From Odontesthes bonariensis (taxonomy: Eukaryota; Chordata; Actinopteri; Atheriniformes; Atherinopsidae): a DNA stretch of 64,000 nt. The stretch covers positions 18,962,467-19,026,466 of the forward strand of contig NC_134529.1 in assembly GCF_027942865.1 (NCBI RefSeq). Reading direction: 5' to 3'. The position numbers were made by a program, and so were the translations under genes. The first letter of the stretch is position 1. Each line of letters starts with the position of its first letter. Positions 4,083 to 4,736 of this stretch are shown here, in pieces. The notes under the pieces are model-generated. The model was not told the origin of the DNA. It did not search any database and worked only from the letters and a program-made list of their open reading frames with translations.

Positions 4083-4736
4083 AGGCTGATTCATACTCGG
4101 CGCAAACGCGCAACTGTTCTGGCTCGAGAACCATTAATGACGTCATCGAAAGCGCCAGCCCCTTCACAGTTCCTTCAGCTCATAAGCGCAGTTTGCGCCG
4201 AGAATGCGTCACATTTGCAGTTCTCTCCAGACCAGCGAGCGTCACTGTTGAGGAAACAAGCTGAAAAGCATACGAAGAAAGCATACACAATGCCACCTGT
4301 GGTGTCACGTCAGCAGAGGCTGGCACATCTGATGCGGAATGAATTTACTCTGGGTGTAGAACTGTATATGTATCTCAGAGCTAAGCGGCTGCGGCAAAAA
4401 CAGAAGAGAAGGTGGATTGTTCGTCCTTTGCAACAAGACGAACTTTGTCAAACGTTGTCCCAGTGTAACTTCATAGACGTGTCGTACAGATGTTTGTAGA
4501 GGCGCATCCTCTCGGTCACCGCGGTCTCTGCAGTGTTCATGTTTCCTTTCTCTTGGTCAGCTGTTTCCGGTGGAGCGCGCGTGAAGTCAGAAAAAAAGTT
4601 GTGTGCGCGCCCTTGCGCCGCGCGAGGATTTTCTAGCTTGCGAAGGGGGGCGTGGCGGAATTTTGGGACACGTGACCGTTTGCGCTATTTGCGACCAGCT
4701 AGTATGAGCGAGGTTGCGCCGAGTATGAATCAGCCT
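4083..4736 (+). mobile_element. PIF/Harbinger-type non-autonomous DNA transposon, copy 1
   Basis: Exactly 654 bp. It is bounded by inverted ends that begin AGGCTGATTCATACTCGGCG on the left and mirror this on the right. The flanking triplets are TAA (4080-4082) and TCA (4737-4739), consistent with a TWA-type 3-bp target duplication with one later change. An internal frame from 4137 to 4499 encodes 120 aa. Its end ([17 protein letters not shown]) resembles the N-terminal region of Harbinger/HARBI1-like transposases, but no catalytic DDE domain follows, so it would need a helper enzyme. It carries a perfect CRE palindrome TGACGTCA (4138-4145) and a CACGTG box (4669-4674). It lies about 430 bp upstream of the otx2 ATG. 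A copy about 98-99% identical lies at 45193-45846. Confidence 0.85.

Follow-up and report, generated by a model that had tools for sequence, protein, structure and literature searches.

A young PIF/Harbinger-type MITE carrying a CRE palindrome lies 432 bp upstream of the otx2 coding start in Odontesthes bonariensis

The window considered here is a single 64,000-nucleotide (64-kb) stretch of the Odontesthes bonariensis genome, near one end of which lies otx2, encoded on the minus strand with a product of 294 aa. The features of this gene and its upstream side are as follows.

3554..3650, minus strand: first coding exon of otx2 (ATG at 3650-3648)
3107..3258, minus strand: second coding exon of otx2
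2257..2892, minus strand: third coding exon of otx2
3934..3941, no strand: TATA-like palindrome CTTATAAG, between the element described below and the otx2 ATG, 141 bp from the element

The homeodomain stretch of this protein, compared with the PDB, is closest to human OTX2 (2dms, E 6.6e-34) and then to CRX (9b8u, 7e-32). This stretch is usually near-invariant, and three positions here differ from the human sequence (A->N, A->G and C->H); thus, this otx2 could be a diverged duplicate. A literature search for papers joining otx2a, otx2b and whole genome duplication returned none. Upstream of the coding start, the host sequence at 3601-4000 has a CpG observed/expected ratio of 1.35, which supports a promoter or first exon there, and judged from its sequence the region 5' of the ATG is plausibly the main otx2 promoter. 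The TATA-like box gives no direction because CTTATAAG is palindromic. In addition, five AGs follow pyrimidine-rich stretches (ending at 3827, 3801, 3725, 3664 and 3659); none is strong evidence, yet they allow for splicing of the ATG exon to one lying further 5'. A bacterial-type promoter scan, which is not intended for vertebrate sequence, was uninformative.

Next to this putative promoter lies a complete copy of a transposable element, separated from the otx2 ATG by 432 bp.

4083..4736, plus strand (the direction of its truncated reading frame): 654-bp non-autonomous PIF/Harbinger-type element (MITE), complete copy, with 98-99% identity to the 39 other near-full-length places
4083..4105, plus strand: 5' terminal inverted repeat, 23 bp, perfect
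4714..4736, minus strand: 3' terminal inverted repeat, 23 bp, perfect
4080..4082, plus strand: left target site duplication, TAA
4737..4739, plus strand: right target site duplication, TCA (middle base unlike the left side)
4138..4145, no strand: CRE palindrome TGACGTCA, present in all 39 aligned copies
4207-4211 and 4240-4244, no strand: two CRE half-sites, CGTCA
4290..4499, plus strand: truncated 69-codon frame with a basic stretch, possibly the remnant of a transposase N-terminus
4669..4674, no strand: E-box CACGTG, present in 38 of 39 aligned copies
45193..45846, plus strand: second copy of the element, in an intron of actr10, with the duplication TTA/TTA

The first 23 bases of the family consensus are identical to the first 23 of its own reverse complement, the terminal sequence is AGGCTGATTCATACTCGGCGCAA, and the 5' inverted repeat of the otx2 copy is unchanged from the consensus. 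The geometry given by the first-pass annotation stands, namely an element of 654 bp at 4083-4736, about 430 bp upstream of the otx2 start codon (432 bp as measured) and about 140 bp from a TATA-like box (CTTATAAG, at 141 bp). The element's own frame is directed away from otx2.

The same annotation had proposed a genome search for further 654-bp copies. Run with positions 4083-4736 against 945 Mb in 187 contigs, this search found at least 40 near-full-length places, the query itself included, at 98-100% identity, a count that is a lower bound since only the best 40 of 772 first-look candidates were scored, in a sample biased to the closest copies. There were 47 matches in all, and seven were shorter than near-full-length, one of them 643 bp. 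The end-to-end alignment and the table of duplications cover 39 of the 40 near-full-length places; the seven shorter matches and L017, whose blastn match begins at base 4, were excluded. Moreover, four copies (L033, L045, L046 and L047) lie inside other copies of the element, the outcome of repeated self-insertion that has produced nested clusters and paralogous empty sites: with the flanks of each of these four joined through one duplication, identity to the element across the insertion site ranges from 91.3% (L047, gapped) to 99.5%. At two other loci, L009 and L023, the 200-bp flanks of one copy match those of the other in crossed arrangement, with 97-99% identity along about 145 bp, so both copies probably lie within copies of another repeat.

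The second copy in the window sits between two exon-like matches to actr10, of which one ends at 44972 and the next starts at 47284. The gene was located on the plus strand with a human ACTR10 sequence as the probe, and with this probe the earlier placement of the copy inside an actr10 intron is upheld. A further weak match at 46556-46639 (E 0.54) was taken as chance. The actr10 region also contains a large inverted repeat at 46351-47033, with 276-bp arms that are 91% identical and 131 bp apart, perhaps a foldback element. At 48482-48972 there are two 164-bp direct repeats, 327 bp apart, that the left flank of L033 matches at 89-95%; they are probably part of a dispersed repeat.

The duplications flanking the 39 aligned copies comprise 16 TAA/TAA, 15 TTA/TTA and one TCA/TCA, with seven mismatched, so that a matched TWA is found on both sides of 31 copies. 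According to PMC4482050, TWA duplications are a mark of the PIF/Harbinger group; together with the inverted repeats they place the element as a PIF/Harbinger MITE, in agreement with the Harbinger type originally assigned. Its perfect inverted repeats, at 23 bp, are slightly below the 25-50 bp that PMC9179366 gives as usual for PIF/Harbinger elements. The related NuwaII group of the PHIS superfamily has the target C|TNA|G, according to PMC4482050, and the element resembles it in its TNA core and a partial preference for flanking C and G. That it belongs to NuwaII instead of PIF/Harbinger proper is improbable: C stands at -4 in 22/39 copies and G at +4 in 19/39, and the one TCA/TCA copy and the mismatched TNA sites would fit, but the flanking bases are partial preferences only, TWA is matched in 31/39 copies, and of the 32 matched duplications, 31 have A or T as the middle base, which is free in the NuwaII target.

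Within PIF/Harbinger, the element has the traits of a Tourist-like MITE: a length of 654 bp, no complete transposase gene, at least 40 near-identical copies and intact ends. It shares with the Tourist-like mPing/Ping system of rice its non-autonomous nature, inverted repeats, a 3-bp TWA duplication whose middle base is variable, and recent amplification. Unlike mPing, which is 430 bp long, it measures 654 bp, lives in a fish host and has kept a truncated frame together with a CRE cluster. With teleost Harbinger transposons it has in common the superfamily, the 3-bp duplication and the fish host, whereas those transposons carry transposase and Myb-like genes (PMC9179366) and the 654-bp element has frames of at most 120 codons and no complete gene of either kind.

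Several observations indicate that the family is young. The 39 aligned copies differ from their consensus by 0.74% on average (range 1 to 11 differences), and private changes amount to 0.20% per copy among these 39. The CpG observed/expected ratio of the consensus is 1.13, versus a mean of 0.54 in the 1-kb sequences flanking the 39 loci (L009-L047); CpG decay is thus absent so far, which counts for a young element, although this youth holds for the closest copies only, the best 40 of 772 candidates having been scored. An insertion preference for CpG-rich promoters is unsupported, as the 1-kb flanks (0.54) are close to the window as a whole (0.55 when binned by 600 bp). Within 300 bp of the element the flanks reach 0.61, a value that includes nested loci, whose flanks are partly the element itself.

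The first-pass annotation had found about nine base differences without indels between the otx2 and actr10 copies and concluded that both are recent. The alignment confirms nine differing positions and no gap, and a recent insertion is supported, but these differences are no measure of the age of the two insertions, six of them being variants found in several copies; only one (otx2) and two (actr10) are private among the 39 aligned copies. Against the consensus, the otx2 copy has six differences, five common to other copies and one private. If neutral rates of 2.5-10 per site per 10^9 years are assumed, a single private change would correspond to an age of a few hundred thousand years, a figure with a wide margin of error. 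"Private" here refers to these 39 copies; as a count of the changes since insertion it is too low if copies outside the sample share none, and too high if the changes were inherited. In addition, all four combinations occur at 69 of 105 pairs of informative sites, which points to sequence exchange among copies or several sources and leaves no clean clock. One may argue that so young an element still segregates in the population and that the sequenced individual happened to carry it, and the single private change in 654 bp (among the 39 aligned) and the many near-identical copies (at least 40) lend this some weight. We regard it as tentative and somewhat unlikely, since the mismatched duplication of the otx2 copy suggests one more change since insertion, or an irregular insertion.

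This mismatch is part of a wider pattern. Unequal duplications occur in seven of the 39 copies (the otx2 copy, L009, L025, L029, L034, L037 and L045); in five, including the otx2 copy (TAA/TCA), they differ in the middle base only, and L037 and L045 differ otherwise. At the private mutation rate, about 0.47 mismatches would be expected among 39 copies, giving P(>=5) = 0.00013 in a test that uses a rough rate and was done after the pattern was seen. The excess may reflect preferential retention of these copies or an irregular mode of insertion. For mPing in yeast, PMC4561436 reports that non-matching duplications are repaired less precisely and that T:C pairings yield fewer revertants; upon excision of mismatched TCA/TGA elements, most sites retained one duplication and about 14% retained both as footprints. 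The TAA/TCA of the otx2 copy would give a T:C pairing if the table in PMC4561436 is extended to it, so on the mPing model its precise excision should be less efficient than that of matched copies. Any locking-in would be partial, because most of the mismatched mPing excisions described there still keep one duplication.

The CRE palindrome is among the features that had drawn attention to this insertion. Within the 64-kb window, TGACGTCA recurs only in the second element copy, and the palindrome appears in 72 of 5000 dinucleotide shuffles of the element. The first 206 bp contain four half-site matches, the palindrome counting twice, a number reached by 7/5000 shuffles; the whole element contains five, a weaker excess (114/5000), and bases 207-654 contain one (a CGTCA at 4308-4312, inside the 69-codon frame), at chance level. 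All these tests were run after the sites had been seen, and the split at 206 bp was likewise chosen afterwards. Thus, the perfect CRE near otx2 is real, close to the gene and improbable by chance, but its presence in 39/39 aligned copies makes it a family trait with nothing special to the otx2 insertion. Conservation of the CRE as a sign of selection is ruled out, given that 265 of 647 8-base stretches are invariant across the 39 copies. The E-box, which the first-pass annotation had also put forward as something the insertion brings to otx2, is at chance level: 1052/5000 element shuffles contain a CACGTG, and the one at 4669-4674 is among ten in the window.

Where the CRE came from may be read from its position. 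It lies about 150 bp 5' of the 69-codon frame, which is retained in 38/39 aligned copies and whose basic stretch presumably resembles the start of PIF-type transposases. The element is probably an internally deleted derivative that retains its parent's 5' end, which would comprise the inverted repeat, a short promoter with the CRE palindrome and half-sites, and the first codons of the frame; the CRE may then be a relic of a transposase promoter. Expression of Harbinger elements in fish, testis-biased in medaka (PMC9179366), would be compatible with a promoter driven by a CRE. Three observations weigh against this explanation. First, the 69-codon frame continues without a stop in the 5' direction as far as an ATG at 4137, which overlaps the CRE, giving 120 codons, the longest listed frame in the element, and if this ATG is the parent's start codon, the CRE cannot be its upstream promoter. 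Second, the 69-codon product has no match in Pfam. Third, the excess of half-sites over the whole element is reached by 114/5000 shuffles. A literature search for papers joining Harbinger, cAMP response element, transposon and fish returned none, and neither did one joining Harbinger, otx2 and teleost.

Whether the insertion affects otx2 is a separate matter. Misregulated otx2 would be selected against, and this weighs against the reading that the insertion is a working regulatory change, in which cAMP/CREB or ATF signals would act through the CRE cluster on otx2 or on a divergent transcript upstream of it. We consider that reading unlikely. In its favor are the full CRE palindrome with half-sites, improbable by chance, the short distances to the otx2 ATG (432 bp) and the TATA-like box (141 bp), the promoter-like CpG ratio of the host sequence at 3601-4000 (1.35), and the precedent of mPing insertions that make rice genes stress-inducible (PMC3782648). 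However, the same CRE is present in all 39 aligned copies, so it is not special to otx2, and an otx2 start next to the element is a putative one, given a possible splice of the ATG exon to an upstream exon. Less probable still is the full scenario in which a recent MITE burst spread a CRE-bearing, germline-type transposase promoter to many loci and the otx2 copy, located in the promoter and less reversible owing to its mismatched target duplication, gives otx2 a lineage-specific cAMP/CREB input.

The explanation that we hold with considerable confidence is that this is a young, non-autonomous Tourist-like MITE, probably a deleted derivative with its parent's 5' end, which most likely has little effect at otx2 and whose precise excision is predicted to be reduced. 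The transposase of an autonomous relative, probably with a Myb-like partner, would have excised the element and reinserted it at a TNA site that lies 432 bp 5' of the otx2 ATG, where it most likely does little. CREB/ATF-type factors would be recruited only to an unmethylated element in open chromatin; under these conditions it may provide an inducible input or a divergent transcript directed away from otx2.

In summary, the otx2 insertion is real, complete and young, but an ordinary MITE of a known kind, and a regulatory role at otx2 is no more than a possibility. Should otx2 be altered by the insertion, this would provide a natural example, open to dating, of how a young transposon can rewire a conserved gene of head patterning. 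Should it not be, the family is still a good system for two questions: whether CREs are dispersed within a transposon promoter, and what the surplus of middle-base mismatches says about the mode of Harbinger insertion and about why some copies stay.
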